64,000 bases of DNA from Branchiostoma floridae (lineage: Eukaryota > Chordata > Leptocardii > Amphioxiformes > Branchiostomatidae): contig NC_049984.1 of assembly GCF_000003815.2 (NCBI RefSeq), positions 8,268,197 through 8,332,196 of the forward strand, written 5' to 3'. The position numbers and the translations under genes are program-made. Positions within the stretch are counted from its first letter, which is position 1. Every line of letters starts with the position of its first letter. Below are positions 17,878-57,305 of this stretch, in pieces. Under the pieces are notes generated by a model. The model was not told the DNA's origin. It saw nothing but the letters and a program-made list of their open reading frames with translations, and ran no database searches.

Positions 17878-17883
17878 AATAAA
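17878..17883 (+). terminator. Poly(A) signal of ENTR1
   Basis: AATAAA lies 627 bp after the ENTR1 stop and is the first canonical signal noticed downstream. Cleavage is expected 10-30 bp later. Confidence 0.6.
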
Positions 17884-18924: not shown

Positions 18925-19010
18925 TGTTGCTACGTCACGTCTAAAGGTGACCAATCAGAGGGCGGCTTTGGGCGTCGGTGTCAGAGTTCTATAATGGCGG
19001 ACGGAGGGTT
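18925..19010 (+). promoter_or_regulatory. Probable promoter of the giant coiled-coil gene
   Basis: A CRE-like TACGTCACG (18931-18939) sits next to an RFX-type half site TTGCTA. A CCAAT box on the direct strand (GACCAATCAGAG, 18949-18960) runs into GGGCGG. A YY1-like ATAATGGCGGAC is at 18991-19002. No TATA box is evident. The ATG is about 100 bp downstream. Motifs are seen directly; function is inferred. Confidence 0.5.
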
Positions 19011-19104
19011 GAATACAAGAAGTTGTAGTCATGTTTCGGTCCTGAAAATAACCCGGACTTAAACTGTTAACGAACAAGACGTCTTTTGGGAACACTTCGA
19101 GATA

Positions 19105-22100
19105 ATGGCCGACAGGGATAGCCTCCGATTGAGGGGAGCTACTGCTCCAGGATCCGCCAACACGTCCCGTCTTTTGAATGGATCTGGAGTGGGAGATCGT
19201 CCCACTAGCGCTACCGGACAGATGCAGAGTCTTCTTGGCGAATTCAAGGGATTGTATCAAGACAGATTAAGAAGTCTTGATCAGAGCAACGACGACTCTA
19301 AGGAGACCTATAAGGTAAGGGAACTGATTATTGATTTCTTAGTAGAGCTTCTGCAACGCGTTTGTAAACAAAGAGTCACTCACAGCAAAAGGGGGAGGGG
19401 GGTAACAGACAGTGAACGTGGACGTTCTGCTAAAGGCAAAGTTCACTGTAGACTTTCCATTCCTAATTTCAGCAGATCTACAATAACTGCTTCTCCCCCA
19501 TACTTCTATGAGTAGTCTTGGATCCAAGCCAATGTTTCCTACCACATGTGCAAATCCGTAAACAGTTTCGCTTGGGCTAGCGCGGAACTCAAAACACTGC
19601 CCCCCTCCCCCACAGCTTCTGGGGCTTGTAGACAACAACACTCGCACACGTAGTAGACTCGTCGAGTCAAAGCCAATCGTAATCAAAAGTTCTTTTGTTA
19701 TTTACTGAATAAAAATTATAATGAACATTTTCAAAAGACTCATTACCACCTATGCATAAAATCGTATGTCCAGTTTTTGTTCAATTTCAAAAGCAGAGTT
19801 GTAAATTTTGTTGTCGACAGTATTGTTATTTTCTGCGCCAATATTGCAGAAAGAATTTTTAAAAGCAACCCCGAAATTGAAATTCAGATGAAACCGTACA
19901 GCATGCAATTCATGCAATCATTGAGTACTTCAGTTGAGAAGGTAAGCACTGTGTCGCTGAAATTCTCGTTGACAAAATCATGAATAAATCATTCAAGATT
20001 GACCGGGTCAGAACAATACAATGAATGACATGATGAATAGTTAACATCAACATTTGTCACATAGTCACCATTGATTATCGTTTACGACTTCATTTGCCCT
20101 AAGGATAACTTTTAGATGTTGATAAATGGGTTAGATATGTTAACGTACTCCTAAGTAATAGTAGTTTGGTTGGGTACAATGAGCTGCAATAACAGGATTT
20201 AAAGGTGTACTTTGAAAGGGGAAATGTTTGCAGTGGTTTTATGATCACAGTTTTTACACAGTGATCTGTTCACTGCAAACTTAAAAGTCACAGCAAAAAT
20301 TTTGTTGTCTTCTACCTTGAACTTGAATCCACCATAAAACACTCCATTTTCTCTCTGATTCCCAAGCTAAATCCCCAATAATATTTTTCCTTTTACAGTG
20401 CAAAATCCCCAAGAATATTTTTCCTTTTACAGTGCATGCATCTAATTTTCAAGTGTCTACCTCAGTTGTAACTTGTATGCAGAGTCAATCCATATGCAAC
20501 ACAAGAATATTGAAACAGAAAGTGATTGATGCATGGTCTTTGTATTCTTTACAGATGAAAACTCGTATCCTGCAGTCTTACGTGAACGACTTGTCGGAGC
20601 AGAATGAAGTCCTGGTACAGACTGTGGAGGAACTGGAGAGGGAAGCCAACGGCAGGGTGGCATTGTTGGAGGGGAAACTGTCAAAAACCACCAACACTGT
20701 CAAGGTGAGGAAAACAGTGCGAGTCTAGTTCTTTGTTTACAATGCATTGACAGACACTCTTTTCATACTCACCTGAGTATAGTTATACTATAAAGTGCCT
20801 TTTCCAAGGGCGCAACATTTGGGCCTGCTAGGATTCAGAGCATTCAAGCCAGAATATTTCGAGTGTAAGTCAACAAAGTACAAGACCACGTTGCCACTTT
20901 GGTTGTCTTATTGACTGTATTGATTGGTGGAAACATTCTGTATCGCTCATATATACTTTAAAAAGTCAAAATATCAATTGATACAAAAAATTGTTGACGC
21001 TGTACTACATGTACTACTCATCTTTCAACATTACTGCAAGTCTGCAACAAGTGTGTCTTACTCGAGTATAAATGACAATCTGGCAGGGATAACAACAGAC
21101 ATGATACAAGCATTTAGACCTGTGATTACAATCATTAGACTGCTAAGTATAGCCATTGTCTTAAGGCAAGATTTTGATTGATTTAAGTACAGCCAAAGGA
21201 AATTTGTGTGGATGGTTTCAAACTCTTTGGCTCTTTAACTTGGAAATCACTTAACACAGTTAACACTGTAATGTGAGGCAACCTGGAGAAGAAATGGAAG
21301 GTTTACACATGTAGTTTATACCCTAATGGAAGCAAATAATTAGCTACCGTTGTAATGTTAGATCAGGTTGATTTGAATGGCTTGCAATGTCTCATAGAAA
21401 AAGACATGTAGACACACTAACAATAACATGTGGGGGTAAATGGAGAAACTGTGTCAGCACAGTAGGTGGCAAAAATAATTAGATTGCTTTTAGTATGAAA
21501 AGATATGAATTACTTTTCATTAGAGTAATGATATTCTAGTATATTATGATACAATAGTATGTGATAATTGTATTAGTTGCCATGGGTGACATTAGTGCAA
21601 TATGGTTCTGATTCCAGCTGTGTCAAGAGTGCTGAAGAGCAATGTCCAAACAAGCTTTGTTGAACAACAAATATATTAAGTGGTTTTCCCACTCAGTGAA
21701 ATAAGAAAATCTAATAGTATTCTCCAATTTATCACCCAGGAGGTACAAAATATGAAATAGTAGATCACAGGGAGTGATTCTGGAAGGTCCATTTTTTCCT
21801 TTGATGTTACCTCCATCTACAGTTGTTAATGATTGGGGCATAAGAGACTATGTGTATTTTCATTTGATGTGACCTCCCTCTCTAGTCGTTATTGATTCAG
21901 CCTGGAGAGTATTATGATGTCATCTAACAGTCAAGTGGCTGGAGTGTAGAACAGGATCTTTTTTGTCCCAGCCCTTTATATGTGTGGGCTAATCACAATA
22001 ATTTGGAAGTCTACGTGTTGATCGGAACTGCTGTATTCATTCTAGATACTCATGCTGAGGTAACGTAACTTGAATGTGAATCTGCTATTGTATTTAGCAC

Positions 22101-25100
22101 GGTCCACTTAGACTTGAAGACTAGCTGTCAAGCCTCCAAAAATGGTATATATTTCATTCATTGATACAGTTTAGACATCCAGGTAGAACAAAGTCTATCT
22201 TTTTCCATCACTCAGTAACAGTGAATAAGTACCTTTCATTGTTTTTCAGCAGTAGATATTACATGTGTGTTTGAAATTGCCAGACTGTTGGGAAAATACT
22301 GCACAGTGCTTTTGACCCAGTCATGCTATTGGCAACTCCTCCAATTTCACAGATAATTAAACCTTGCTTTTGCCAAAGCTACTGGAATTACATGTACACA
22401 GTGGCAGGGAGGAACACCTGTCTGGTGAGATGGATGCACTGGTTTGTTGTTCCAGCATCATTTTAATTTTCACCCTGCGATCAATGCCCGTTGCAGAGTT
22501 TTTTTTCTCTCCTTGGTCCTGCAAATGGTCAAGTACTAGTTTCTAGACTAGTGGGCATGAGATCTATGGGTTGGATTCCAGGCATTCCTGGCTAGACATT
22601 ATGTCCTTGGGAAAGGCACTTGACATGACTTTCCTCACTCCATCCAGCCAGGTGTAAAAATGGGTACCTGGCTTTGGTTTGGGAGGCAAAGAGTGGTGGA
22701 AGAAGAGAGATGGGCTTTGCCTTCCCAAACAGTTGATAACAATTGCAACCCACTACCACCCTAAAAAAGCACATCTTGAAACAAGAATGTTTCTGTCTTC
22801 TATTTTCTGTAAGCTTGAAAGACTCTGTAGAGAATGGTGGTATGAACAATTAACAAAGGGCTTACTTCACATGTTATTTCTCCAGGAGTACGTGAACAAG
22901 GCGAGGGACTATGAGCAGCAGGTGAAGACTATAGCAGTACAGAAGAAGAACGCAGAAGACCAGTTGGAGGTGAGTTTGCTGCTTTGTTGAGTTACCAAAA
23001 AAGCCCCCTATGGTTTCAGAAAAAATGTTGTGTTTCCAGCATGATATTGCACCTGTATTTATCACAATATGATGTTGAAAATACTATTGTCCTGGTGCAT
23101 TCCAGTTCTACATTATTAAGCTGTATTTGTTAAATCACTTTTGAAGTCTTAATGGAAAAGAAAAAAAGTCCCTATCTACCAACCCAAAATTTTTCAGGAC
23201 CATAATCAGAAACACAACAGTAGATTTCCTAGGCCTCCTACACAGTTTTCACATATTCCTTTGTTGTTCCAATCCCTTGTCCATTTTCTAAAATATAAAT
23301 TCTGCAGATTTTTAAAAATACAATGACTTACACTTCTTTTAATCACTAACCAGTCCTATCATCGATATTCGTCTTCCCAACGTTTTAGAAGACAGGAGAA
23401 AAGTGTTTGTCAGGTTGTATGAAATACTGACACTTTGGCTATAGTAGCTAGGTTAGCCAAAGTAGTCGCTCATTGACATTTTGCAATCAGCAAGCTTTGG
23501 CATTGTCAACATATTGAAGCTCTGCAGGGTGACAAATCACGTGCTATGTAGAATCAAAGTGACAAACTATGCTCCACAAATAATTCACCTATAATACTTC
23601 ACATTGAATTAGCGGGGGCTGGATATGATTAACGGTGTATTGCAAGCTTAGTCAGCATTGTTTCCGCTCACCTTGGATGTCTGACCTGCTCCCCGCCCAA
23701 CAATTGGGACCCCGACAAAAATCTAAAGTTGGACACAGCCCTGTACCTAGAGACATAAATGTAATAATCTCCAGTTGTTGTTGGCTTCTGCTTAGCTTGT
23801 GTGCCTCTTTCCAGGCTTTTAATCTCTCAGTCAGAGTCAGACTCTCAGTAGTACTGCACTTTTGATGTCTTACTCCGCTGACAAATTCACAACTACTGGT
23901 ACATGACTCATCTGTTGGATTTCCACAGGAGTGGCAGCTGAAGTACCAACGTTTGGACGACCAGGCTGGGTCTCTGCAGGGGTTTAACGATGACCTGAAA
24001 CATGACATTAATGCTCTCATCAACATGATCAGCACTGCTCGAGCCACTGGCAAGTGGGAGGTAGGAAGCTGTTCTACACTTTTTAATTACTCCAGTGAAA
24101 GTGGAGATATTTTCATCAGTTGGTGTGTTTGTTAGTTGTGTTGCAAGTCTGCAATAATGTGAATATGGCAGTGGTAGCCTGCCAAGATGTAAGACAGAAA
24201 TGTAGTAATAGGATACTTGGAGAGTTGGAAGTCTGGTTTTGCACTTGTCCAATGTTGTAGACAGGCAGAAAATGATGTCAGTCAGTAATCTAAGAATATT
24301 ATCAATACCCAGTGTTAAGCTTTTTTGAAGGATGGCCTTACATTCTCACACAAAATATGTCTCTCTAATGGGATTGTTTCCTCCACAGACAGGAGACATG
24401 GAGCTGAGAACAGTCTCCGTGGAGGCAGTGCTAGGAGCCCCGGAGGCACAAATCATGTGAGTAACAGCACTGTTCATTTTGGTGACTGAGGCTCTAAAGG
24501 AGCAAGTATAGTTATTGTGTGCAGTCTGCAAGAATTCTATGAATTGCACAGCCACAGGCATTCTTTTGACTACCCACACATGCATAGTTTATTGTTTGAA
24601 GAAAACCTCTGAGCGTAACATCCTAGGAAGAGGGACAGTTGCATTACAGGGGTTGCTAAATAATACTATACTTAGTCAAGTAATATATATTGGGAGGCTT
24701 AGTAGAATCGATCCCTTAGATGTTTTTAAGAAAAAACACATTTCTTGAAATTATGAACACATGCATTATAGATTTGATTAGCAATACATCTTGCTTGCAA
24801 TATTTGTACACAGATTAATCATGTATTTGTGCATTATTGCCCCAAAATCTTGCTGAACAGAAAATCAGAAGAGATCCTGCAGCGCCACATCCGTGAACTG
24901 AAGGAAGAGATGGCACAGAGGGACAACATCATCCAGAAACTGCAGGAGGAACTGAAGAGTGTGTCGTACCAGGAACAACGGTCACGGGATCAGGTCAGGG
25001 CATTCTCCTATGCAGAGCCTCACCCATGACATATACAATAACTCTTGGGAAGTCTCTACTAAACCAGACTGAGGTTTCCACTCATGCGCGCATTACCTCT

Positions 25101-27755
25101 AACTAGCTGTCAGCCGATCAGAGAATATCATAGATGTTCCCTTTAGGTAGTGCTGAGTCTCTGATTGGCTGACATCTGGTTAGAGGCCACCCCAACAAAA
25201 GTGGAAATCTCAGCCCAGTTTAGCAAATTCTGACTAGTTATCTTATTCAATAAATTGTACATTGTCATGGACAAAACCTTTGATTTCAGCATCAGAATGA
25301 GAGCATTTACAAGTGTATAAGTTTACTATCACTGTTGCCTCTCCCCACTAGGCTGCCCAAAGAGACACCGTGCTGGGCTCAGTGAAGAACACCCTGTCTT
25401 CCATCCATGATAAGGAGCAGACAGCCACCTCGCAGATCATTGACAAGGACATCAACATCATGAGACTCAAGTCTGAACTGAGACAGGCTAGGCAGGGGAG
25501 GGACGAGGCAGAGCTGCAGGTCTGTGTGGCATCTCTTCAGGGCTGTCTCCAGCTTTTTTTCATCACACTCATTGTTTGGGAGCTCAAGATGTTCATTTTA
25601 GTTGTCAAATCTGTCATTTTAAGCTTATGAAAACACATTTTCTTCTGTTTCATGTATTAAAGTTCAGATTTTTGGCCAGGAAATGGTAAAATCTTTGTCC
25701 GTGCCAACAATGTCACATCGCGGAGTGACGGGTCTGCATCTGTTTGTTTATTTGTTTGCACAACTGGTTAACTGCCTTCAGGCACAAGTTTTGTACAGTA
25801 TAGGTACAAGCTACGTAAGACCAGACTGTAAGGTCCGATCCACTCACACCAGGAAGGAGAATTTATCAGTTTACACCCTTTTTGTGCACACAGGTTTCAG
25901 ATCTGGAGAGGAGGATTGCCAGCCTGCAGTCCCAGATCTCACAGCTAGAGGAAACACTTACTGTCAATGACTCAGAGGTGAGTATCTGCTGGAATCTTTG
26001 GGTAGCCATACAAAATGCAAACTCCATGTGTCAGCTTCTTGTCTGGCCTTGTCTGTAAAAATCCTTTTTGTACAAAGTGTTTTTTTAATGACATGCCCTT
26101 TCAATTTTGTTTTACACCTTGAAGGTAACTACATTTGTTAACTTGCTTTAATTGTTTTATTCAACAGAGGACAAGCCTACAACAAACCATACAGATCCTC
26201 CAGGACAAGCAGAGGAAAAGTAGTCAAGAGGTAATGTAACAAATATGATGTCTTCCATTCTTCTATTCTTCAAGATCTATAACTGTGAAAACACAAACAG
26301 ACAGACAGACCAACAACAATACATCCCCAAATTACTAGTAGCCTCTTCCATTGAACTCATGACCTGGACCTTCAACTATGATTAATGACTAGCTCTACAA
26401 CCTCTGACCTGTACTTGTTACCACTTTAGCAAGTCTGATCTTTTTAGGTCATCTTTCCAGTCACTCCATGTCACTCTTTTGACTAAGTGTGTATTTTTAC
26501 TTATTTTAAGTTTTTTCATGATAACAAAATCCCAATGCTGACAGGTGGATGTATGAAGCTGAAATATTGTTTTTTCTGGTATCCATTCCCAGGCTACACA
26601 TAGTGAGGGCATCATGAGGCAGCTACGAGCTGACCTGGAAAAGTCACGGGACCAACAGAGGATGTCCACACATGATGTAAGTACATGCATACCAGTACAG
26701 CTCCTTGTATTTTCCTTTTTTCGTGTTTGGAATCTTGTTTACTTATAACCATGCTTGTCTTTGACCTCAGGTAACTTCACTAGAGAGAAGGATCAAAGCG
26801 CTGGAGGATGAGGCTCAGGAAGCAAAGGAGGCAAAGAGGAAAGCTGTAGATGAGGTATATATTGTTTACAAAAGTATGTGATGTGGCAGTGTTAGACGCC
26901 ATTCCGGTCAGGATTTGTGAATCGGAGTAATTGTAATGCTGCCTGTTTTTTGTCCCACAGATTGGCATACTGCAGGCTCGACTACGGGAGTCACAGATAT
27001 CCACACAGGGCAACAACGACATGCTGAAGGCTGAGGTAGGGTTAGGGTTCCTCTGTTCTGATATGGTAAAATCATCCCATCACAAAAGACACATCTTGCA
27101 ATGTGACTTTCAGAAATACTGTCTTTGTTTACCTTCAGTCATTATTCTGTTCTGATTGCATCAAAGGTGATGAAAATTTAGTCATATTTTAGCACATGTT
27201 TCTTTTTTTGTTTTGTTTTGCGTAAGATTTGCCCTTCAGTTGCATTTGTATCACTTGTGTTATAATTTCCCTTCTAGGCAGTTCCACGAGGGCAGTACCT
27301 TATACATAAACTAGAGGTACAAGTCAGGACAAAATGTTTCCCATAACCCTCAAACAATAAACTAAAGTTCTGATGTCTGTCTGTTAACATATAACTGTGA
27401 TGACCGGTGCATGGGCCTGATTACTTTCCTATTGGGGTTGATGGTGGTATATCTAACCTGGTAACAGGGTTTCTTGCATGGTGTAAGGTGCAGGTTGGAA
27501 GCAACATATAAACAGAAGAAGCCTCCTTGACTTACATGTAACTGACACTGCATACTGTTATCCTCATATTGTACAGGTGATATAAGTGGTGGTCATAAGG
27601 TTGTAAAAAAGGTTCATATTTATCATAAGGTATCAGATTTGCCAATCTTTTGCTTGTTGCCTTACGCCCAGCTGGCACGGCGAGATGAGACGATCCAGCG
27701 CCTTCGGAAGGAAGTCATGGGTCTACAAGACAAGCGAGACCAGCTGCAGGGAGAG
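19105..27755 (+). CDS. Coiled-coil gene, 5' exons (N-terminal region)
   Basis: Exons are 19105-19314, 20555-20704, 22886-22969, 23929-24060, 24389-24456, 24861-24993 (joined in phase 2), 25352-25519, 25894-25977, 26168-26230, 26593-26676, 26771-26854, 26961-27035 and 27672-27755. A further 39-bp candidate at 27278-27316 (AVPRGQYLIHKLE) has splice-like borders but is not coil-like, so it is doubtful. Exon 1 encodes a low-complexity N-terminus and the first amphipathic stretch LLGEFKGLYQDRLRSLDQ. Exon 2 has the best candidate family signature. Exons 23929-24456 encode a break in the rod (DDLKHDINALINMISTARA, then TGDMELRTVSVEAVLGAP). The regular 28-residue repeat starts from 25352. ATG context is GATAATGGCC. 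Confidence 0.82.
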
Positions 27756-45700: not shown

Positions 45701-48700
45701 TACTGAACCTTCTCAGTTGAGTTTTTCATTATTTTTATGGTACATGCAAACATCAGTTTCATGTTTGTAGCTTAGAGCCACAGGATTTAATTTTTATTCT
45801 TTTTTAAGTTCCCACTAAACAAGGCCCATGAAGCCACGTTTTGGGTTACAGTACTGAATTCTGAAGACAGATGTTTTTTTGCTTGGATCAGTCAGATAGC
45901 CGGAAGCCTAGGCCTTAGGATAGTTAGAGGTCAAATTCAGAAGCTTTTCAGTTGAGTTTTTTTAATTATTTCTATTCCAAATCAATCATAGATTTTGTAT
46001 GTAACCATGAGAAAGCATAATTATGCTTGTGCCTGAATGTTTCTTTATAAAGTTTATTGTCGATGACAAAACAGTTGACTGAGAGGTAACTTTTAATTGC
46101 CTTCCAACTTAAAATTTAAAAAGATGGATCCTGCAGACTGCAAGCAACATGTGCAGTGAGTTTTTTCTGACTTCTGATCAAGATTTTTGTTCCTCCACAG
46201 TTGGAACAGAAGGACCAGTCTCTGATCAAGTTCAAGTCCGAGCTGGAGAACCTGCAGCAGCAGCTGGAGGACAGGCGGGACCAGGTGAACACCTGCGAGG
46301 ACGTCATCGAACAGCTGACACAGGTGACTGGTGTTGAACTTTTCTTTGGCTTTACTTAGTTCCTAACAACCCTACCTTAAAGCATGAAGTTCCTCATTTC
46401 ATGTTCTATCTGTCATCGTACTGCTACAGTGCTGGAGCTAAATCAAAGTTTGTCCTCTAGTATTTCTGATCATACATGTACATTACTTGTGCCAGGTCCT
46501 TTTAAGGTGGGGTACTGTAAACCTACTTGTCTTTTAGCATCAGGAATCCATAGGAGGAGTTTTCCTGCTGGTTCAGTCATTGTAATTGAAACAGAGTCTA
46601 AATGGATGGAGTCCGAATTCTATAGATATTCATGTGCATGTGGAAGGGTACCATATAGCTGTTTGTTTGTTATATAGCCATGTCATGTTCTTCTTCTTCT
46701 TCTTGTTATCTAGAATTTAATTCTTTTATTCCCTCCTTCCTACCCCCCATAGGAGCTGCACACCTCGCAGCAGGACTTGGCAGTGACCAAGGACAGGGTG
46801 ACTCACTGTGAGGAGGTCATCGAGAATCTGAAGGAAAAGATGCTGGACAAGCAACAAGAGGTAAGGAAATTGTGATGTCTTGCTTAGAAATATATTAAGC
46901 AGCCATTAATCAATGTTTGTATCACAAAATATGTTCTGGGATGTGTGTCAATAAAGCAGTACGATCAAAACTGCTCAAGAAAACCACTGGGGGACAAATA
47001 AAATCTGGTCTGTCTTGACAGGTAGTCAATGTAGATAAGATTCTTGATGCTTCTGTCAATAGGAAAAATGATCTAAGGGACCACAAAAAGTGGGGGCGAT
47101 TGTTTGTACAGGTTGGGCTGTATTATTCATTTCATTTCATTTTATTTGTTTTACCAGAGTTACATCGCTCAGGACTCCCTGGACACATATAGAAACAGAC
47201 ACCATACAATACTTGTGAACTACACAGTCACATAACTTAACTTAACTTAGGAATAAGAATTAAGGGAACCATTGTGCAAAACCAAGGATGTTAATTGTTT
47301 GTGTCCTTGGAAAACCATTGTCTGGGCTTTCACATCTTTTATATCAATTTTTGGAGTTAATTTTAGAGCTCTACTATGAAATGCACGGTTTGCTTTAACA
47401 AAATTAAAGCAGGATTCTATTGTGTTATAATTACAGTCCCAGCAGCATGAGGAGAAGGCAAGGAAACTACAGGCTGATCTCATTTCTTATGAGGAGAACC
47501 ACCAACACACCAACCAGGAGGTAAGGAATTCTGTAGGCGTCTGTGTTATCTAATACATTCCACCCCATAGATAAATTACTTTCAAGTACATTTCAGGATT
47601 TAGATAGCCCTCACTGTGTACAAAGTAGTAAATTTTTCAATCTTAGAACAAGACAGTTGTGTAATTGATACCTTAAACTCAATGTTGATTTATTCATATA
47701 CAGGGGTCAGTTCACTCATTTGTAGCCGCTTGCTTGTATATATTTTTAGTTGTTGAAAACTTTGCCAAAGTCTTTTCTTGTGTCACTAAAGATGGCTTTG
47801 TTATGATACCTTGATAAGTTTTCTATGTTGTCAGAGTTGAATTTTTACCTGCCCAATTCAATGCTTTAAAGGGGTAGCAGAATTTGTGATTTTTTAGAAA
47901 TTGAAAAAGCTTGTCAAATGACCTATTTTCAACACTTTGAACCCAGTTTGCAGACCAGGAGGACGCCATTCGGCAGCTTCAGTATGAACTGCAGCAGGTG
48001 CGTGACCAGAGCGAGGGGAGGCAGCAGCAGATAGGGGAGCTGCAGGAGACCATCGGCCAACTGCGTATCGACCTCACCAGTCTGAAGGAGCAGAGAAACA
48101 GTGCTTCAAAGGAGGTGTGAGGCTGTATTTAGTTATCAGTGACAATAACAATGAAGTTTATTGCATATTCATTCCCCATTGGGACTAAATGCAGTAAGTT
48201 TGATACAAAGGGAGTAAAAGAAAAGCTACACATACTGTAGTTTACATGCTTCTGTATAGAGTTGGATTATAAGATATTTCAACAATATTTACAAAATCAT
48301 TGCATGAATCAAAAAGAATTCTGAAAGGATAGAGAGCAGCCAATAACAAAAAAGTCACCTTTTGCTAACAATGCAAGACATGGGTAACTTCTTATTCTAC
48401 TCAGTGTTTAAGTACAACTGTTTCCTGACAACAAATTGTTTATTTTCTGTGCAGATCTCCCGTCTGGAACAGAGTCTACAACAGCTGCAGTCTAGTCTAC
48501 AACAGGAACATCACAAGCACAGAGTAGAGGTGAGTCATGCCTTGTAAATTGATTCAGTTGTATACTTGATCCAGGGCTCTAGCCAGCTCGATTTTTTTTT
48601 TCCGTCAGCCAATTCCCATTGTCGCGAAAACCGCGAAAATAAAGTCAGAAAGACGGAACTGAGACCTTGAAAAAATTTTTTTTTAATGAGATTATCGTAT

Positions 48701-51700
48701 GCGAAAGGGCGCCGACACACATTGTCAACAATCATAACAATAGCAAAACAAACAGTGTGTGGCTTTCCGACGGTGGACAGCGTCCCCAAGCCACCTGTAG
48801 CTTCCACCAAGAATTTTTGTCCGTCAAGGTTGACGGATTGGTTTAAAAAAATTTCCGTCACACGCAGCAAATTTCCGCCAATTGACGGAAAAACGGACGC
48901 TGGCTAGAGCCCTGACTTGATCTCTGTGACGAGGAGTTGAAGTGAAGAATCACTTGCTATGTGCCTACAATTGCAGCAAACTAAATCATGTATCATATGT
49001 TCCTATAGAAAGCCAAAATGGAGGAAAATGCCAAGTTCTTGGAAAAGAGCTTGGAAGACTCCAGGAACAGGATAACGGACCGAGAGAATGAGCTGGCCAG
49101 AAAGGACGAGGCGCTGAAACGTTACGACATTGAGCTGAACGCATCGCGGGAAGACATCAAGAGCAAAGTGGATGAGGTGAGAATGTGGTGTTGTCTCTCT
49201 TTATTTAGGAAGATAGCAGAAGTATCAGCAGGCGCCTCGTGTGTGTTTAGTACCTTTGATATTCTCTCAATACCCTGAAGACACTGCTTTTTATCTTCAC
49301 TGAGAAGGTTATGTTTTTAAGCGTATGTATGTTTGGTATGTAGTTTAGTAGCACAACTCACGAAGCTATGGGTAGATTGTCATGAAATTTTGTATGTGAT
49401 TAGGTCTTTTCCTATAAAAGAAATGATTACATTCTGGGCCTCTTGGCAGGTTTTCTTGTTACTGCAGCAAAACTTTTGAAAGTTTTGATAGTTTACTTGT
49501 CTGAAATAATAACTTTTATTGTTTTTCCTCAGATTGAGAGACTAGAGAGCACCATGAAGGCGTTAAAGGTTGACATCAATGGACTACAATCAGCAAATAG
49601 GCAGAAAGATAATGAGGTGGGTGGCACTCAGCAATGACTTATCTTGCTTTTGCTGTATTACCATGGTTTTGCTGTATATTCATGTATTTTGGAAAAGAAT
49701 CTACAGTGGTAAACACTCGAAGACAGAATAAGATTTTATACACATGATAGAACAAAATTACTGATAATCTGGTACAAGTACCAATGAAATAAATAGCAGA
49801 TACCAATTCAGAAAAGAACAAAAACTAGTCACACCTTCAAGTACATGTATTAGTTTTCAACCCAGGATTGAATTCGTGGGCCATAAGCCTTGGAAGCTGG
49901 TGTGTTATGCTGAAGGGTGATTATACCGGCTATAAAGATACAAATACATACATTGCTTTTTTTTCACTAAAAATCTGAAGGTCAGTCTGTAAGTTGAAAT
50001 GATCACCAACAGTATTTCTCCTTGTCTGTTGCAGTATTTACAGCTTCAGGGAGAGGCAGACAGGTTGAAGGGAGACCTTAGTGAGGCCAGACGCCAGTAC
50101 AAGGACTGTGCCCAGGAGGTACGGCTTTCCACTTTTCTGTTTTGCTATGCATGTTGTAAGCTGTTTCCTGTAACCTTCTAGTAATCTCTTTCTACTCATG
50201 AATTACATAAATTTTTCGATCCAGTTTTCATGCCTTGTCATTTCTTTCCTGATTCCCATAAGATTGATCGGGAAATATTCTGCTTTAACTACCAAATGTT
50301 GACTCTGTAACTGTTACCCTCCCCTTCCCAGCTGGCATCATGTGGTGTAACTGCAGGATGTTTGATCTTCTGCAAGGTGTAAAAATGGGCACCTACATTT
50401 AGTTGGGGAGATAAAGTCATTTGGAGGAGAGGGTTGGGCTCTGCCTCCCAATACCGTGCCCTAGATACAATGTACAGTGGATATCAACCCACTGCCCCTA
50501 TGAACTCAACAAGGCTTTGGGACTAATTTTACCTTTACCCTTTTCCCACCCTAGCTTGCCCACCACGAGGAGAAGTTGATGTTGATGGAGAGCAGCCTCA
50601 GCACCACGCAGGAGCAGCTCAGTCTGCGCGTCAGCGAGGTGGTGAAAAACGAGCAGGCTAACCGGAAGCTTCAGTCGGAGCTGAAGGCGCTACGGGACCG
50701 CACGCGCAGCAATGAGGAAGAAATCCAGGAGAAGAGCCAGGGGCTGGGGAAACTCAGGGAGGAACTAGCCTTAGCCAAGCAGGATCACCATAACAGGTAA
50801 GAGCCAGGGGCTGGGGAAACTCAGGGAGGAACTAGCCTTAGCCAAGCAGGATCACCATAACAGGTAAGAGCCAGGGGCTGGGGAAACTCAGGGAGGAACT
50901 AGCCTTAGCCAAGCAGAATCACCATAACAGGTATGTGGCTTTTTTTACACAGCGGAAATAGACACACAGGTAAAAAAATCATTTTGAAGCATGAATCCTT
51001 GTAAAAGATAACGAAAAATTGTATGTTGACACCAATCTAAGCATCTGAAACAACTCCAAATGTATTTCTTTATTCTGGTCGGGAACAAGAAGAAATTACA
51101 TGCAGCTGTATTTTTTAACCAGTATCAAAGTGATGAGATGTATACAATTTACTTGAGAGCACTCAACAGCACTTTTAGGCAGTATACGAACGCTATTCAT
51201 AAGACAGTGTACAAATGGATTTTTAAAAGTGCAGGTTTTTCATCACTTTTTCCGTTGTACTTGACTCTGCAGTGTTCAGGAAGGTTTAAGACACCAGCAG
51301 GCTGCACACAAGATCGAGGTGGAGTTAGCCAACGCCCACGAGCAGCAGAAGCTGCTGAACGAGCAGATCTCGCAGCAGGACGGGATCCTACGCGGTCTTC
51401 AGGACGACCTCCAGCGGGAGAGAGAGAAGCACACGGAGACGCAGCACGTTCTGCAGCAGACGCGCCAGCAGGGGAGGAACGCTCAGGAACAGCTGGAGGA
51501 GACCAAGGCAGAACTCAGGGACAGCAACAACAAGGTATGACAGCAAGGAATCATTAGCTCCATGAAAGGGGAGGTATTGTAATCAGTTTGTGTTTCTATT
51601 TGACTTTGTGCATGTCCACAGTTATGAGGATACAAGGCGGAAGTGGTGAAGTAGGATACTTGAAGAATTGGAAGTATGGTTTGGCTCGGGTTCAATGGCA

Positions 51701-54700
51701 TTGTCATTCAATGATTGAGAGGCAGGAAGTGATTATGCACAAGTGAAGCATGTTCTGCATAACCCATGGCTATACCCATGCAGTAATTTTAGGTCATTCG
51801 GGGTATCCACTAACAACCCTCACAATGTTCAGCCAATTACATTTTGTATATCAGGCTATTGTAATTTCATATGGTGTTGTAATGTAGGAGTTGTGTTTAG
51901 GCTTGTTTTACCGTTACTGCTACAGGTGAAAGATAAGGACAACATGGTGGCCAAGCTGCAGACCGAGCTGGACACCTTACAGCAGAAGAACCGGGGAGTG
52001 AAGGAGGACCTGGCCGAGAGGGAGGGGCAACTCAGGGTCGCCAAGATGAACATCGCTACACTGCAGAAACAGGGCAAGCACCACAACCAGGAGGTCAGAA
52101 GCAGATACTTTATCATGTTGGTCCTGGAATAAAGAGCTGATCAAAGAATGAGGAGCACAAAATTTATAGGGAAGGCTCTCGTGGAACGAGCCTGAAAGTA
52201 TAGTGTTGTGTGTGAATTGCAATTATGTCAGGGCATGGATAGTTTTTGTTGGAAAACTCCATTCCGGAAGTTGCTACTTAATGAAAAACATATCTTTTGT
52301 TGTTGTTACAATATTACTACAATACAAAATTAAAAAACGTCTTTTGCAACTAGCTATACAGTATCCGAATGAGTATGGAATGCAAATATTAAGTATGGAA
52401 TGCAAATATTAAGAGCCTATCGTTGATATGTTCCACAGGTTGCTCGTTACGAGGAGTCGTTAGCACAGCTCCAGATGGACCTGGAACAGAGCCAGGACCA
52501 GTACAGAACCTGTCATCAGGAGGTCAGTACCACACTACAGCAACTGTGGGAGGGGGGCAGGTTTGGGGGAGGACATCTCTTGTGCTCTGGGGCTGATTTT
52601 GTTTGAGACTTTAAAAAATAATAACTCTTCCTAAGTGTCACTGACAAATGACAGTGGATGCTGTCTGCAATGTTTGACTGTTTTCAAAATCATATCCAGT
52701 TGCTTGATTGAGTAACTGCTTTTTGGTGCAACTCTAAGAATGGTCATGATTTTTGGTTTGTATTGGTATTTGTGTAAAAGAAAGTTGAATTACTAAGTGT
52801 TTTGAGCCCTCTCTATTTCCACACACACAGCTGATGGAGGGTGAACAGAAGATCCATGAGCTGAAGATTAAGATCTCCACAGTAGAAGGGAACCACAAGG
52901 AGTCCATGGAACAGCTGGGAGACAAGGCCACCGAGGCCGCCAACCTGCGCAACGAGGTGCAGCGTTTCCAGCAGCAGAACCAGGCCATGGCTCAGGAGGC
53001 AAGTCTCTTTCACTTCTGTGTTTGTTGACTTCTTGTGTGTGAATAGTCTTTGTTTTTGGTGTGTTTGTTAGTTGAAGAAACTGGCAGTAGAGTGGAAGTC
53101 AGAGTGTGGGTTTAATGAAGGGGCTACAGATTCATGGGGTGGCATTGTTTTTTGCCTCTATTGGGTCTGCTTGTGTTTTCACAGTTATATTTTCCATACA
53201 CTAGTCACGTGTACCATAGAGTGAAAGGAGGTAATCAATGGACACATGTAATAAGGCTTAGAGGATTAGGGTTAGTTTTAGTCTTTTTAACTCGGGTCTG
53301 AACCTGAGCTTTTGCTCTTTTTTTGTTTGCAAATTTCTTGACCATTTTTCATGATACTGTAATTTTCACTTCATTTTAATTGAAATATTTCATACGATTT
53401 TGTCAGACTTCCAAGCATCTTCTGATGATACACTCAGATATGGTATCAAATACTCAGTGATATGGCATCGACTGTTTTAAATGGCAACAATCATACATAA
53501 GATAGAAACGTTATCATCATTATTGTTCCCCAGATTGCCATGTACGAAGACAAGATGAGGAAGCTGCGTACTGAGCTGAAGAAGGTTCAGGACCTGAACC
53601 GGCAGAGTGAGGAGGAGGTGCGGAACTACGAGCAGCGGCTGTCGGAGCTGGAGCAGCGCGCCCAGTCCTCCACCGAGAAGCACCACCAGGGCCTGCAGGA
53701 CCTGTCACTCAAGGAGGAGCAGGTGGTCATGATGAGGGTGGAGCTGTCTGCACTGCAGGAGAAGTTCAGGCAGAAGGCAGAGGAGGTCGGTTTTGTAACT
53801 TTTTTATTCAGTTTTACATGTATCAAATAATAACATGGCATGGCACTTGTACAAAGAGATGGACAACACAAAATCCCATAATAAGAACTGCAGGAGAAGT
53901 TCAGGCAGAAGGCAGAGGAGGTCAGTTACAACAATTTTCTTCAATCAATGACTGTTTTGTAAAGGTACAGTACATACCTCACAAATTTTTTATGTCTACC
54001 AGCCTGCACATCTTCGTCATGGGGAATGACCTAGTCTCAATTCTCTACAGAGGAGGTCAGTTTCAACCTCAACAGTGTTTGTGTTTATTTGGTTGTTTGT
54101 GATCGTGTTTATGTGGTTGGTTTGCAGAACTGATAAACAGCCTATAGGTTTGCACAGTACAGGTTTGCACAGTAGGTACAAGCTGTGTGAGACCTGACTG
54201 TAAGGTAGGATGCAATCATATTTGGATAAATCGATACTCTTTTCGTTAAAGGTGGTTGGTTCCTTAATGTACTCAAGGTGAAGGATTTGCCTATAATTGC
54301 TTACACAATAAAAAGTTGGACTTGCCCAAATTGTTGAAAAAAAACAGCACCAATCTCACTAGAAATGAGCCAGTCTACAACTTTAACATTCTGGAAAGCT
54401 TTAAAAACAACTGTTTTTACTTTTCACAGAATGAGAAGGTGAAGAATGAAGTGGTAGTCCTGCGGCAGAAGAACGCCTCCATGACAGATGAGATCCAGAG
54501 CCTACGCCAGTCGCTGGAGGACGCACGGTCTAACGGCGACCGCCTTCACCGCGAGAGTGAACTCGTCGTCACCAACGTCAACACCTGGGTACAAGAGCAG
54601 AAGTCTGCCAACGAGAAACTGGGACAGAAAATACGGGACCAAAGCCGTGCCATCGTGACACTTACCTCTGAAAAAGAACACCTCGTAGAACAAACCGACA

Positions 54701-57028
54701 GACTACAGAAGGACAACAGGAAACTGCAAGACGAAGTCGACGAGAGACGGCTAGAAAGCGAGAGATTCAAGGCTCTCCAACAACACTCCGCCCACCAACA
54801 GGCCCTACTGAACCAGCTGAAAAACAGGCTAGAGGAGAGAGAATCTGATAACGACCGAGAACTTGGACAGAAAGTGGCAACGATAGAAGACTTGCACTCC
54901 AGGCTAAAGGCAAATGTGGACTCTATCCAGCAGCTAAACCAGCAGCTGAACGCGCTGAACAAGGATAACCTGCGCCAGCGCTCGGCGTTAGAGCGGGAGG
55001 TGGCTGCTAGACAGAGTATGGAACTACAGCTGGAGAGTAAGGAGCAGACCATCCTGAGTCTGAAGGCACGACTGGAGGCAAACGTGCATCAGCAGTACTT
55101 AAACCACAGTCCACACAAGGAGGTATGTGTACACACTGTGCTTCATGTACAGTACTGAAGTAAACAATACAGTTAACAACAAACCAAACCATACCTCCAA
55201 TTCTCCAAAATACTACTACAACACTTTCAAATCTATAATATTAAAATAAATGCGGACACACATCAAGACAAACAAACAAGCATACAAACTGATTACAATA
55301 CCTCTGTTCCATAGGGTTAAATAGTATACATCAGAAAATGGTGTTCTGTAGTATTTCCCAGTTGTGATTATCTAAATGTGATTTAATTTGTTTGTATAAG
55401 AACTAACGTGGGACCGCGTGGCACGATCGAGAGCGCGTTGGTCTCAGGCCCGAGAGGTCCCGGGTTCAAATCCGCTTGCCGTGTCACCGATCTTGTGCCC
55501 TTGGGAAAGGCACTTTACACGACTTTCCTCACCTAACTCAGGTGTAAATGAGTACATAGCTTCGGCTAGTGGCAGTGACAGGCCTTTGTTGTGGTGACAG
55601 GCCATAGGGGCATGTTCGGGCATGACGCACCCGCCATGACACATGAGTCAGGGGTGGGAGGAACCCCTTACATCCTTGGTCGGAAGTCCTCCTAGGAGAC
55701 GGAAACTCCAAATAACAAACCTGCATCTGCTGGGGCCGTCTTACACGTTGCAAACAATTGCCCCTGTAGGACTTAGTGCGCCAGTGGACGAGAGGGTGGT
55801 GGAGAAGGAAGTGCACACCCCTCCTTCACCTTAAAAAGTGCAGGCCAGGCAGACGGGTTGCCTTAAACCCACCCTGTCTGCCTACCATTGTCTTCCGAGA
55901 CAGACGGATGCCAAAACAAAAAAAAATAAGAACTAACATTGGCTTATCATAGTTGTAGAAAAGAATACATTACCTGACACATATGTGACCCTTGTGTGCT
56001 TGTTTTTTTTTTCAGGATTCAGGGGTGTCTGGTCTTCAAGATTCAGCCTATGCCTCAGCACTGGAGAGGGGTCTACTTAGGTCTTCACTCAAGATGGACA
56101 AAGACAAGGTACATTTGCACACTCAGTGGTTGAATTTTTTTGGGGGGGGATAGTAGTTTGAAGAGATAAAGTAGCTACGCAGCTGCTGTTGGTGATTATT
56201 AGTAATGATGTTATTATTTATGGCAGGTGTACTATGTGATCCTAGACTGGCCTTACACTGTAATCATAATTGGCAGAGTTGTTATAGAATAATTCATAAT
56301 GCTTAGGGCACTGGGAAAATCCATGGAACTGCCAACAAATGACCACTGTAGCCAGGTCGCTGCTACATGTATGCAGAGGTGACCACTAATACATGTTTGC
56401 CTGTAACTTGTCCTAAGAGTGTGTTTTGTTTTTCCCCACGTGTTGATAGTTGCGTGCCAAGGCCCTGGAGGATGCAGGCAGCACAGATCCTCAGGCTCTG
56501 GACAAGTCTTACTGGATACAGAGGGTTGGAGAGGTCAGTATTCCCTGCAAAATATTTACATTGTAGAAGTGTATGTTTCAGATGATTAGTAAAGGTAAAG
56601 CTTAAAAGGTAAAGGTCCAATAGCCTGTTTGACTCTAAGGCCTTAGGATCAGTGGGTTGTCAAATCACTGTATTTTGGAGACTGTCTTTTACCACCCCAA
56701 GTAAAGTCAGGTACCTATTCTTACACTTGGGTGGAGTAAGGAAAGTAAGGAAAGAGCCTTTCCCAAAGACATAAGGTCTAGGCCAGGAATTGAAGTTGTG
56801 ACCTGTCACTCTTGAGACCACTAGCCCAGCTGTGCAGTCATTTGATTCCACATACATTGTGTTCTTGGTCTGACAGTGTGTTTATGGTCCACCCCTGTAC
56901 TGACCTTGTTCTTGTCCTTCCAGCTGTCCATCCAGCTGCAGCAGAGCAGCGAATACTGGTCCGACAAGGTCAGGGAACTCTCCATGCAGGTGGAGCGCGC
57001 TCAGTCCGTCTCCCCGCATCCACGGTAG
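19105..57028 (+). CDS. Giant coiled-coil protein, about 2,390 residues, about 52 coding exons
   Basis: The product is a long rod. After a short Ser/Gly-rich N-terminus (MADRDSLRLRGATAPGSANT) nearly every residue fits a heptad coiled coil rich in E, Q, K, R and L. There is no membrane segment, no motor domain and no catalytic motif. The frame is continuous from ATG 19105 to TAG 57026-57028. All introns resolved are GT-AG except one GC-AG (donor at 52999), and all but two are phase 0. Half of the exons are exact multiples of 84 bp (28 residues, four heptads). The N-terminal block KTRILQSYVNDLSEQNEVLV and the C-terminal block SYWIQRVGELSIQLQQS, then EYWSDKVREL, look conserved. My best family guess is PMFBP1-like (a sperm head-tail coupling coiled coil) or a golgin/centrosomal rod. 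This is a weak assignment, so no symbol is given. Confidence 0.85.
20770..20895 (-). mobile_element. Degenerate SINE copy
   Basis: The copy is minus-oriented. It shows ACCTGAGTATA, AAAGTGCCTTTTCCAAGGGCGCAA and a decayed B-box region (GGATTCAGAGCATTC), in the order seen in the better SINE at 10866. It is strongly diverged. Confidence 0.5.
22585..22760 (+). mobile_element. SINE fragment with tail type C
   Basis: GGATTCCAGGCATTCC stands in the B-box region. TATGTCCTTGGGAAAGGCACTTGACATGACTTTCCTCAC and AGGTGTAAAAATGGGTACCT follow. The tail GGGAGGCAAAG ... GGGCTTTGCCTTCCCAA ... CAACCCACTACC is shared with 50340-50540. Confidence 0.6.
24100..24260. repeat. Dispersed repeat, family also at 16.6, 51.6 and 53.1 kb
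   Basis: Words such as AGTAATAGGATACTTGGAGAGTTGGAAGTCTGG recur as ATAGGATACTTGAAGAATTGG at about 16670 and as GTAGGATACTTGAAGAATTGG at about 51650. Weaker remains occur near 53090. All copies lie in introns of ENTR1 or the coiled-coil gene. No terminal repeats or target duplications were identified, so the element class is unknown. Confidence 0.5.
25009..25265. mobile_element. Fold-back MITE copy
   Basis: Long imperfect inverted arms are present. The left arm reads CTAAACCAGACTGAGGTTTCCAC and then CCTCTAACTAGCTGTCAGCC. The right arm reads GGCTGACATCTGGTTAGAGG and then AAATCTCAGCCCAGTTTAG. It shares about 200 bp with 29282-29505. Borders are approximate and no target duplication was recognised. 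Confidence 0.65.
28232..34900 (+). CDS. Coiled-coil gene, second exon block
   Basis: Exons are 28232-28462, 28754-28828, 29098-29181, 30559-30624, 32639-32701, 32883-32966, 33461-33535, 34103-34186 and 34754-34900. Two small candidates lie between 30624 and 32639: 31182-31217 (LAAQARQEKNEQ) and 32559-32576 (ALHEEM). Both are phase 0 with AG/GT borders. The 66-bp exon plus the 18-bp microexon gives exactly 84 bp, but the 36-bp candidate looks more like coil sequence. Which are used, or whether they alternate, cannot be decided here. All other borders are clean. Confidence 0.78.
29282..29505. mobile_element. Fold-back MITE copy
   Basis: The left arm has GCTAAACCAGGCTGAGG, GACCTCTAACCACCTGTCAG and CCAATCAGA. 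The right arm has TCTGATTGGCTGGCAGCTGG, TTAGAGGCCAC and CTCAACCCAGTTTAGC. The element can fold almost end to end. The outer ends read GCAGAGCCT at the left and AGGCTGC at the right. It is in an intron of the coiled-coil gene. Confidence 0.7.
30714..31046. mobile_element. hAT-like MITE (family of 43159), older copy
   Basis: The ends CAGGGCTCGAAATTG and GTATTTCGAGCCCTG form a 13-bp terminal inverted repeat. The inside carries repeated GGTGCAC words, as in the 43159 copy (GGTGCAGG). No matching 8-bp flank remains. It lies in an intron. Confidence 0.65.
31560..31710 (-). mobile_element. Degenerate SINE-like fragment
   Basis: ATGTCCTGTCATAGCAACTGCAACCC, CCAGGATTCAAATGCCC (B box in minus orientation) and CAGTAACCACTGGACTAGGAAGG keep the order of a tRNA-headed SINE. 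It is diverged and I am unsure of the extent. Confidence 0.35.
32276..32363. repeat. Perfect 23-bp inverted repeat with 42-bp loop
   Basis: The arm at 32276-32298 (starting CCAAATAGCAGTTACTC) and its exact complement at 32341-32363 flank 42 bp. One related arm (TTGCTTGATTGAGTAACTGCTTTTTGG) occurs at about 52698-52724. It is probably the core of a palindromic transposon; a structured intronic RNA is the alternative. Confidence 0.7.
35767..35781. promoter_or_regulatory. SOX-POU composite site
   Basis: ATTTGCATAACAATG is the exact reverse complement of the classical SOX2-POU5F1 composite motif (CATTGTTATGCAAAT): a POU octamer half joined to a SOX half with standard spacing. It sits 68 bp before the candidate alternative ATG at 35850. 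A 15-bp match by chance in this window is very unlikely. Whether a lancelet SoxB and POU factor bind it is unknown. Confidence 0.7.
35850..35951 (+). CDS. Candidate alternative first exon of the coiled-coil gene
   Basis: An ATG at 35850 opens 34 codons (MDGVLMTWAEGMDDFWEEVE, then ALKSQRKVQDLQNK) that end in a strong donor AAG|GTAAGA. The frame is phase 0, so it can splice to exon 38359 (ISRKDISIQQLESDLK). No good acceptor precedes it, which favours a first exon over an internal one. A GC-richer 300-bp stretch and a SOX-POU site lie just upstream. It would make an N-terminally shortened rod of roughly 1,600 residues. This is inference from sequence only. Confidence 0.45.
35952..38358 (+). other. 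Large intron of the coiled-coil gene
   Basis: This is 2.4 kb of AT-rich sequence between the candidate first exon and exon 38359. Stops occur in all frames. No transposon with recognisable ends was seen. Confidence 0.5.
38359..48529 (+). CDS. Coiled-coil gene, central exon block
   Basis: Exons are 38359-38601, 39105-39251, 39454-39537, 39944-40027, 40190-40273, 40515-40610, 42247-42330, 42669-42752, 43513-43680, 44115-44282, 44784-45026, 45355-45585, 46201-46323, 46753-46860, 47437-47520, 47947-48114 and 48455-48529. All are phase 0. Lengths repeat: 84 occurs six times, 168 three times and 243 twice, with one each of 147, 231 and 75. Within 28-residue units a recurrent pattern is visible: I/L-R--LE-DL----Q-Y---EEV, for example LKTDLDTTQQKYKGCQEE and LKELEDDLAESQQQYTACYE. 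The exon at 45355 is preceded by two tandem copies of its own acceptor and first bases. Confidence 0.88.
39835..39926 (-). mobile_element. Degenerate SINE ending next to a splice acceptor
   Basis: AAAGTGACTGTTCTAAGGGCACAACACTGGATCC, then GGGATTTTAACCCAGAACC (B-box region) and GATCCTAACCCACAGACCACTTTG, keep the SINE order in minus orientation. It ends about 17 bp before the acceptor of exon 39944-40027. Confidence 0.5.
43159..43481. mobile_element. hAT-like MITE with 8-bp target duplication
   Basis: The ends AGGGCTCGAAAT and ATTTCGACCCC are inverted. The flanks TGAAGGAC at 43151-43158 and 43482-43489 are identical. The interior is built of many GTGCAGG / CCTGCAC words. It lies 31 bp upstream of exon 43513-43680, inside the intron. 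Confidence 0.75.
45114..45384 (+). repeat. Three tandem copies of a splice-acceptor region
   Basis: The block TTTGG...CTCCCTG...TAG followed by GTTGGTCAGTGTGAGAACAC begins at 45114, 45223 and 45336 (spacings 109 and 113). Only the third copy continues into the exon (45355-45585). The first two diverge after ACACCATC into TTTAGTGTTA. Confidence 0.85.
46689..46706 (+). repeat. (TTC)n microsatellite
   Basis: A short TTC run lies in the intron before exon 46753. It may add to the pyrimidine tract. It is not otherwise notable. Confidence 0.7.
48572..48914. mobile_element. hAT-like MITE with perfect ends and 8-bp target duplication
   Basis: The terminal inverted repeat CAGGGCTCTAGCCAGC / GCTGGCTAGAGCCCTG is perfect over 16 bp. 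ACTTGATC flanks both sides (48564-48571 and 48915-48922). The 343-bp interior has repeated CCGTCA / TGACGG words and no ORF for a transposase. Its intact ends suggest a fairly young insertion. Confidence 0.88.
49009..57028 (+). CDS. Coiled-coil gene, 3' exon block and C-terminus
   Basis: Exons are 49009-49176, 49533-49616, 50035-50118, 50555-50796, 51273-51534, 51926-52093, 52439-52522, 52831-52998 (GC donor), 53534-53785, 54430-55122, 56016-56108, 56450-56533 and 56924-57028. The pair 50555-50796 and 51273-51534 is split in phase 2, but together they measure 504 bp, six 84-bp units. The 693-bp exon is the largest and equals 33 heptads. The rod ends near QYLNHSPHKE. A Ser/Gly-rich linker (DSGVSGLQDSAYAS) follows, then a final amphipathic block containing SYWIQRVGE and EYWSDKVREL, and a short tail SVSPHPR. 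The stop is TAG. Confidence 0.88.
50340..50545 (+). mobile_element. SINE 3' fragment, tail type C
   Basis: AGGTGTAAAAATGGGCACCT is followed by TTGGGGAGATAAAG, GGGCTCTGCCTCCCAAT, GTGCCCTAGATACA and CAACCCACTGCCCCTATGA. The copy at 22585-22760 has the same order. The tRNA head is missing or eroded. It ends just before the acceptor at 50554. Confidence 0.55.
50734..50937 (+). repeat. 67-bp tandem triplication spanning a splice donor
   Basis: Units start at 50734, 50801 and 50868 (period exactly 67) and are nearly identical. Each ends CATAACAGGTA. The first unit is the real end of exon 50555-50796. Reading past its donor meets an in-frame TAA at once. Only the first donor keeps the downstream frame, so units 2 and 3 carry decoy donors. 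Confidence 0.92.
53752..53923 (+). repeat. Direct repeat of an exon end and its donor
   Basis: The last part of exon 53534-53785 with its donor (53752-53788, ACTGCAGGAGAAGTTCAGGC...) recurs without change at 53887-53923, 135 bp downstream. A shorter copy (CAGAGGAGGTCAGTT) is at about 54048. The copies lack a good acceptor. Confidence 0.85.
55408..55925 (+). mobile_element. Full-length tRNA-derived SINE (518 bp) with 12-bp target duplication
   Basis: ATAAGAACTAAC occurs at 55396-55407 and 55926-55937. The head resembles a tRNA: A-box-like GTGGCACGATCGAGAGCGC and B box GGTTCAAATCC. The family body follows: CTTGGGAAAGGCACTTTACACG, CAGGTGTAAATGAGTACATAGCTTCGGCTAG. A long tail specific to this copy type ends in a poly(A)-like run. 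The intact duplication and tail point to a recent L1-like retrotransposition. It lies in the intron between exons 54430-55122 and 56016-56108. Confidence 0.88.
56600..56840 (-). mobile_element. SINE copy, minus orientation
   Basis: Read on the minus strand it has GAATTCCTGGCC near the B box, GTCTTTGGGAAAGGCTCTTTCC, CTTACTCCACCCAAGTGTAAGAATAGGTACCTGACTT and a tail with CAACCCACTGATCC. That tail resembles the type seen at 22585 and 50340. It is diverged but the order is kept. Confidence 0.6.
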
Positions 57029-57040
57029 CACAGATCACGT

Positions 57041-57305
57041 GTGGGCATGCTCACTAGCACTGCAGACATCTGAGCATGCTCAGTAGTACTGGAGACGTCT
57101 GAGCATGCTCACTAGTACTGCAGACGTCTGAGCATGCTTGGTAACACTTAACACGTCTGAGCATGCTCAGTAGCACTGAACACATCTGAGCATGCTCAGT
57201 AGCACTAAACACGTCAGAGCATACTCAGTAGTACAGGAGACATCTGAGCATGCTCAACAACACTGAACACATCTGAGCATCCTCAGTAGTATTAAACACA
57301 TCTAG
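57041..57305 (+). repeat. Nine-unit 29-bp tandem array with palindromic core
   Basis: Unit starts are 57041, 57070, 57099, 57128, 57157, 57186, 57215, 57244 and 57273, with no indel. The core CTGAGCATGCTCAG is a perfect 14-bp palindrome in the best units, and TAGTACTGGAGACGT-like sequence fills the rest. The array starts 12 bp after the stop codon. Confidence 0.92.

Follow-up and report, generated by a model that had tools for sequence, protein, structure and literature searches.

An 84-bp exon quantum and a shared 28-residue unit in a long coiled-coil gene of the lancelet Branchiostoma floridae

The genes of fibrillar collagens contain 54-bp exons that encode six Gly-X-Y triplets, repeated copying of one exon being the mode of growth proposed for collagen genes, and the rod of myosin II carries a 28-residue charge repeat. 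Intron positions in long coiled-coil genes are, to our knowledge, usually uninformative about the protein, myosin being an example, and we know of no coiled-coil gene for which an 84-bp exon quantum has been reported. A narrow phrase search of the open-access literature, which proves little, found no description of arrays of 84-bp coiled-coil exons.

The gene analyzed here lies in a 64,000-bp stretch of the B. floridae genome, referred to as the window (C6:8268197-8332196 of a 513,431,437-bp assembly with 431 contigs), and positions are those of the window unless stated otherwise. Like the fibrillar collagen genes, it encodes a repeat protein in exons sized by a single quantum and bordered in phase 0, and fused multiples occur; unlike theirs, its quantum is 84 bp, or four coiled-coil heptads. 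Its product resembles the myosin II rod in being a heptad coiled coil with a period of 28 residues. An earlier note on this DNA had drawn the analogy with myosin, which holds for the length of the repeat but less well for its charge: the 28/3-residue period is present without being dominant and is weaker than those at 14, 7, and 3.11 residues (net-charge power of 1.56 versus 2.81, 7.16, and 5.53, respectively). The gene structures differ as well: in a myosin II gene from this genome, 20 exons of the rod were counted and none is a multiple of 84 bp. We propose, with a probability of roughly 80%, that the lancelet gene comprises ~66 tandem units (residues ~232 to 2028) that grew from an 84-bp phase-0 exon, with variants copied and introns later lost. 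Growth by exon modules is a known process; what is new to us is an 84-bp quantum in a coiled coil.

Gene model and exon lengths

Exons were predicted blind by dynamic programming that combined codon log-odds, generic splice matrices, and an intron cost and that contained no term for exon length. Training used clear open stretches first and the finder's own predictions second, a procedure that favors coiled-coil codons without favoring particular lengths. It predicted 58 exons in 15,000-60,000, of which 47 fall within 22,000-54,000 (the blind set). Curation removed the six exons predicted upstream of position 20,000, five of which resemble another gene and the sixth of which was replaced by eye with 19105-19314. 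In two cases the first AG past the pyrimidine tract was adopted as the acceptor (28241 to 28232 and 47959 to 47947), although the splice scores favor the uncurated positions, by ~0.6 nats at 28241 (a near tie) and by ~2.7 nats at 47959. A predicted 27-bp exon at 53894-53920 was removed as a copy of an exon edge. A 36-bp exon at 31182-31217 was retained as doubtful and not counted as a unit. The resulting gene runs on the forward strand from the ATG at 19105 to the stop codon ending at 57028 and has 52 exons with predicted borders and 2352 residues. Its parts are as follows.

19105 to 19314, forward strand: first coding exon, 70 residues, not coiled-coil-like; ATG at 19105 and donor at 19315 set by eye, the blind finder giving only 19266-19314
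20555 to 24456, forward strand: head exons 20555-20704, 22886-22969, 23929-24060, and 24389-24456, predicted blind
24861 to 24993, forward strand: exon whose last 28 residues match the profile as the first repeat unit (MAQRDNIIQ...), which ends exactly at the exon end; profile score of 7.5 at residue 232
25352 to 53785, forward strand: rod of 65 further units in 42 exons (including the doubtful 31182, which holds no unit), from blind prediction and profile parse
46201 to 46860, forward strand: two exons, 46201-46323 and 46753-46860 (123 + 108 = 231 bp), separated by a phase-0 intron within a unit
50555 to 51534, forward strand: six units, 504 bp, interrupted by the rod's sole phase-2 intron (50797-51272), from blind prediction and profile
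54430 to 55122, forward strand: 693-bp exon, coiled-coil-like and without repeat units, from unit score and genome search
56016 to 57028, forward strand: last three coding exons of 93, 84, and 105 bp, predicted blind; stop codon at 57026-57028

The score of 7.5 at residue 232 is the highest in the head, the next being 4.3 and 4.1. One further stretch, 30559-30624 (SNSRNDELHDLRQELERCKEM), resembles a unit by eye and has an acceptor; its donor is weak and its profile score is below threshold, and it was kept out of the model. It is possibly a lost or alternative exon. A 29-nt tandem repeat of about six copies occupies 57025-57200, from the stop codon onward. Upstream, at 15221-17007 on the forward strand, is what appears to be a separate coiled-coil gene, which presumably resembles ENTR1/SDCCAG3 and which gave no Pfam match above the cutoff.

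The earlier note had claimed that the exon lengths of this gene are quantized in units of 28 residues, and the result from the gene finder confirmed the 84-bp size pattern. In the blind set, 17 exons are 84 bp, six are 168 bp, and one is 252 bp, so that 24 of 47 are multiples of 84; lengths of 75 bp (four exons), 63, 147, and 243 bp (two each), and 231 bp (one) also recur or occur. Lengths are divisible by 3 in 43 of the 47. Against a smoothed length null, the 17 of 43 exons of exactly 84 bp have a P value of ~5e-13 under the least favorable of three smoothings, and the 29 of 43 that are multiples of 21 have a P value of ~2e-15. The curated model reproduced the claimed counts in full (84 bp, 18 exons; 168 bp, seven; 252 bp, one; 63 bp, two; 75 bp, four; 147, 231, and 243 bp, two each) and contains one further size, 96 bp (40515, 32 residues). 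The 18 exons of 84 bp amount to 16 as modules, since those at 22886 and 56450 are not repeat units (unit scores of -15.4 and -19.8). Exons of the blind set begin with V, I, or L in 31 of 43 cases and end with E in 31 of 43, in keeping with the tendencies described in the note. The sole phase-2 split of the rod, 50555-50796 plus 51273-51534, was likewise recovered as 504 bp or six units. The statement that introns are otherwise in phase 0 is correct within the rod; the head contains a phase-2 intron (24456/24861).

Other coiled-coil genes of the same genome

These sizes might be an artefact of gene prediction or be ordinary for long coiled-coil genes; the borders are predicted, after all, and some have weak splice scores. 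The finder was rerun on parts of three coiled-coil genes of this genome named by their Pfam matches: a many-exon myosin II that we take to be nonmuscle, a TPR-like gene, and a rootletin gene (Pfam Rootletin, E 4e-14). The myosin II count covered 20 of 30 predicted exons (the rod, 11637-26362 in local positions), leaving out the motor-end and earlier exons and the last exons at 27361 and 28118; the TPR-like count covered 20 of 24, leaving out a first 9-bp exon and the last three; and the rootletin body covered 32 exons (local 15,600-42,000), leaving out the array described below, an 84-bp exon at local 11090, and others. Multiples of 84 numbered 0 of 20, 0 of 20, and 0 of 32, respectively. The finder, with no length term, thus gave 0 of 72 in the pooled controls versus 24 of 47 in the lancelet rod gene (Fisher P 2e-12). 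The earlier note had named an equal size distribution in other long coiled-coil genes as a ground for refutation, and the three genes read do not show one. Phase 0 alone is not special, as 18 of the 20 counted TPR-like exons are divisible by 3. In these three genes introns are likewise little related to the protein.

Exons of 84 bp do exist elsewhere. In front of its Pfam Rootletin domain, the rootletin gene contains 13 tandem phase-0 coiled-coil exons (C14:16400716-16407534) with lengths of 93, 87, 93, 93, 84, 84, 87, 105, 105, 105, 75, 84, and 147 bp, many of them with weak splice scores. Like the lancelet rod gene, this array has one coiled-coil module per exon, 9 of 13 exons starting with LE and all 13 ending in E or Q; unlike it, its lengths spread from 75 to 147 bp, with only 3 of 13 equal to 84, and multiples of 21 account for 7 of the 13 (P 0.0009). 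When the controls were widened by these 13 exons and by the 192-bp and 84-bp exons behind the array, multiples of 84 reached 4 of 87 (Fisher P 7e-10 against 24 of 47). Exon-module arrays therefore occur at least twice in this genome, and an equally strong 84-bp quantum was not seen in the control stretches read. We consider it very improbable that the sizes in the lancelet rod gene are an artefact or a commonplace of coiled-coil genes.

In the myosin II control on C13, a predicted 42-bp exon at local 20554-20595 of the reversed stretch, VHKLEKSNRALEQQ, duplicates the start of the exon that follows it, VHELEKSKRALEQQ; it is either another edge duplication of the kind described below or a spurious exon.

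Unit homology and intron positions

A profile was built solely from the 16 single 84-bp rod exons and used to score 23 units obtained by dividing the 168-, 252-, and 504-bp exons purely according to length. The exact register scored best in 20 of these 23 held-out units in comparison with shifts of 7 and 14 residues (P 1e-11) and also in 20 of 23 in comparison with all 28 offsets; the units missed in the heptad-shift comparison were both units of 44115 and the fourth unit of the 504-bp array. The leave-one-out profile score was 7.63, versus 1.65 ± 0.52 (best of 200, 2.94) in shuffles that exchanged residues, within a unit, only between the four positions sharing a heptad letter. Since these shuffles preserve the heptad and the score nevertheless drops, the likeness of the units exceeds what the heptad alone provides. 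The internal homology that the earlier note had expected from an alignment of all 28-mers was thus found as a shared profile that heptad-preserving shuffles do not reproduce.

The consensus of the unit is roughly [LVI]-A-x-[RK]-E-E-x-[LIV]-R-R-L-K-S-E-L-S-x-L-Q-E-Q-[HYL]-R-x-[SAC]-Q-E-E. Core positions 1, 8, 11, and 15 are mostly apolar and positions 4, 22, and 25 mostly are not; a few units share, by eye, Y-x-x-C at columns 22 to 25. Identity between units is low, at 7 to 32% (16 units compared with a first one). Outside the exons of the region, five six-frame stretches reached the profile threshold, two being the 67-nt duplicates described below and three being weak. The 693-bp exon was considered as a fused array, and no units were found in it (best score of 1.9, versus 3.9 for the 95% point of shuffles).

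Introns fall at 39 of 64 unit borders versus 1 of 1703 other in-frame codon borders; the phase-2 intron is not part of the latter count, and introns within units total two, the second lying between the exons at 46201 and 46753. Two features inflate this contrast somewhat: fused exons were divided manually, guided by lengths and profile, ahead of the formal parse, and borders in the 63-, 75-, and 96-bp exons were taken from the exons themselves; for the same count, 45355 was cut as 21+28+28 residues, the later parse favoring 28+28+21. The register result on held-out units is free of this weakness.

It is possible that the 28-residue repeat is structural, as in myosin, and that introns were inserted later into recurring proto-splice AG sites. 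Such sites are certainly at hand: 52 of 64 unit borders are AG sites, 15 of which read AG/GT (the slash marking the border), exons often end in GAG, CAG, or AAG, and the within-unit intron at 46324 sits at an AG/G site. However, phase-0 AG sites elsewhere in the rod are nearly devoid of introns (1 of 454, versus 33 of 52 at borders), and so are AG/GT sites (0 of 13 elsewhere, versus 10 of 15 at borders). Introns therefore track unit borders and not AG sites in general, which disfavors insertion into the latter. In addition, the myosin II rod of the same genome, which should have a repeat of 28 residues as well, shows no multiples of 84 in its counted exons. We regard late insertion as improbable, if somewhat less so than an artefact of prediction. 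Growth by duplication of an 84-bp exon module, which the earlier note had suggested, is well supported by the unit profile, the register, the border introns, and the control genes.

Growth of the rod and its protein product

Under this duplication reading, the order of events that we infer begins with a founder that would have been a phase-0 84-bp exon of four heptads, or 28 residues. An exon of this kind, symmetric and composed of whole heptads, can be duplicated or skipped without disturbing either the frame or the register of the a/d core, so that copies could accumulate easily. Variants would then have arisen in single units, of 75 bp (25 residues, in most cases through loss of three residues past column 12), 63 bp (shorter by one heptad), and 96 bp (longer by four residues), and some of these length variants may have been copied together with their neighbors in blocks. 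Later exact loss of introns at some borders would have left the runs of 168, 252, and 504 bp, and two introns would have been gained or moved inside units.

Intron loss had been put forward in the earlier note and is plausible, its one trace being a weak 3' bias on a parse made by hand (65 units; 38 borders with and 26 without an intron). In that parse borders without an intron are commoner toward the 3' end (8 of 32 versus 18 of 32; P 0.028), and no clustering of intronless borders was found (runs P 0.46). The bias weakly fits cDNA-mediated intron loss. Alternatively, the fused exons could reflect duplication inside an exon that never held an intron.

The profile parse divides the 65 rod units into 50 of 28 residues, eight of 21, five of 25, and two of 32, and the hand parse gives 51, seven, six, and one, respectively. 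The compound sizes proposed in the earlier note can be read accordingly. Both 147-bp exons parse as 21+28 residues (84+63 bp). The 231-bp exons parse as 168+63 bp, 28232 as 21+28+28 (by a margin of 2.2 over 28+21+28) and 45355 as 28+28+21, and the split pair 46201/46753, also 231 bp in total, parses as 28+28+21. The proposed 243 = 168+75 applies to 38359 in the form 84+75+84 (28+25+28 residues) and is less well supported for 44784, which parses as 32+21+28, with 28+25+28 only in fourth place. A 25-residue unit constitutes a stutter (25 = 3 x 7 + 4), and in four of the five such units (26961, 28754, 38359, and 48455; not 33461) the three residues are missing after column 12.

The sequence of these variants raises the question of whether the gene grew by multi-exon blocks and not only by single exons. 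From 26168 to 39251 on the forward strand, with 31182 excluded, unit lengths run 63-84-84-75-84 bp four times and then 63-84, the third copy lacking one 84; such a block would be 390 bp or 130 residues. The order 25-28-21-28 (75-84-63-84 bp) occurs four times in the 65 units (permutation P 1e-4, post hoc), and when only the first 26 units were permuted, none of 20000 permutations gave as many. Equal odd lengths recur at lag 5 (P 0.0017; any lag from 1 to 12, P 0.016). Four of the 25-residue units (48455 not included) are alike, at 27.2 versus 8.6 for units of other slots, and this mutual likeness together with the shared deletion site speaks for copying of the variant. The 28-residue units that follow a 25 also resemble their own kind (30.3 versus 15.3; all slots, P 0.0007), and the best diagonal runs of two, three, and four units have P values of 0.03, 0.01, and 0.03. 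However, the test followed the sighting of the pattern. The three 28-residue slots taken by themselves give a P value of 0.12, and units in slots B, C, and 21 are scarcely more similar than other units. Unit similarity is not raised at lag 5 (P 0.63), and the run of five units has a P value of 0.29. Growth by such blocks, at least in 26168-39251, is a suggestion to which we give slightly less than even odds.

Adjacent units are no more alike than others (lag 1 mean of 12.39 versus 11.83 overall, P 0.34), and so there is no trace of single-step tandem copying. Similarity is raised only at lags 3, 4, and 9 (P 0.01, 0.013, and 0.007; best of 12 lags, P 0.04), and the absence of one unit would spread a lag-5 signal over lags 4 and 9, a reading made after the fact. 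The absence of likeness between neighbors, a trait usual in genes grown by exon duplication and not strictly needed for them, may reflect saturation or block copying.

At three places exon edges together with their splice sites have been duplicated next to themselves, giving decoy splice sites.

45113 to 45378, forward strand: 114-nt unit in 2.4 copies, acceptor and exon head, upstream of exon 45355, from repeat comparison
50732 to 50932, forward strand: 67-nt unit in three copies, exon tail and donor, with two repeats extending into the intron, 99-100% identical
53752 to 53927, forward strand: 41-nt exon tail and donor at 53752, with a copy 135 nt downstream (53887), 98% identical

The 67-nt repeat adjoins the odd phase-2 intron, and an in-frame stop (TAA) follows if the first donor is not used. 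These copies suggest that local duplication is ongoing in the gene, although an assembly error is possible.

The protein is most likely a long dimeric scaffold. With a rise of 0.1485 nm per residue, its 1797 rod residues would span roughly 270 nm, with a soft spot in every unit. Nothing above the cutoff was found in Pfam for four protein pieces or in NCBIfam for three exons, and nothing in the PDB reached E 0.1 for the tail. Myosin_tail_1 was not among the Pfam matches (E up to 0.01) of the four pieces, which cover ~1000 of 2352 residues, and none of the 49 listed genome matches to PF01576 is on C6, with 43 of 233 candidates scored. In a genome search for paralogs, the 693-bp exon and the two-unit exon 43513 each matched only themselves among the matches listed. 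We take the 693-bp exon to resemble the C-terminal part of CCDC18 or PMFBP1, as a lead only; these are vertebrate coiled-coil proteins of the centriolar satellites and the sperm neck.

Published reports count CCDC18 among the satellite components that, when depleted, disturb the satellite pattern (PMC5219025), list it with function unknown (PMC7348975), locate PMFBP1 at the sperm neck (PMC12901780), and show PMFBP1 exon 15 to start in phase 0 (variant c.2089-1; PMC11639112), the last being weak as a hint of orthology.

Coiled-coil rods may evolve by a heptad-quantized exon code, in which symmetric exons of whole heptads are copied singly or in blocks, 75-bp stutter variants recur within a 130-residue repeat, and gene structure directly determines how soft spots and stutters are spaced along the rod; the rootletin array would be a second, looser case. 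We offer this generalization tentatively, holding it closer to a conjecture than to our reading of the gene itself. In the lancelet rod gene exon, repeat, and heptad coincide, which makes the history of growth of a rod protein readable. The gene is also a natural test of the tolerance of coiled coils to insertions and deletions, the lengths found being whole heptads plus one main stutter class of 25 residues.
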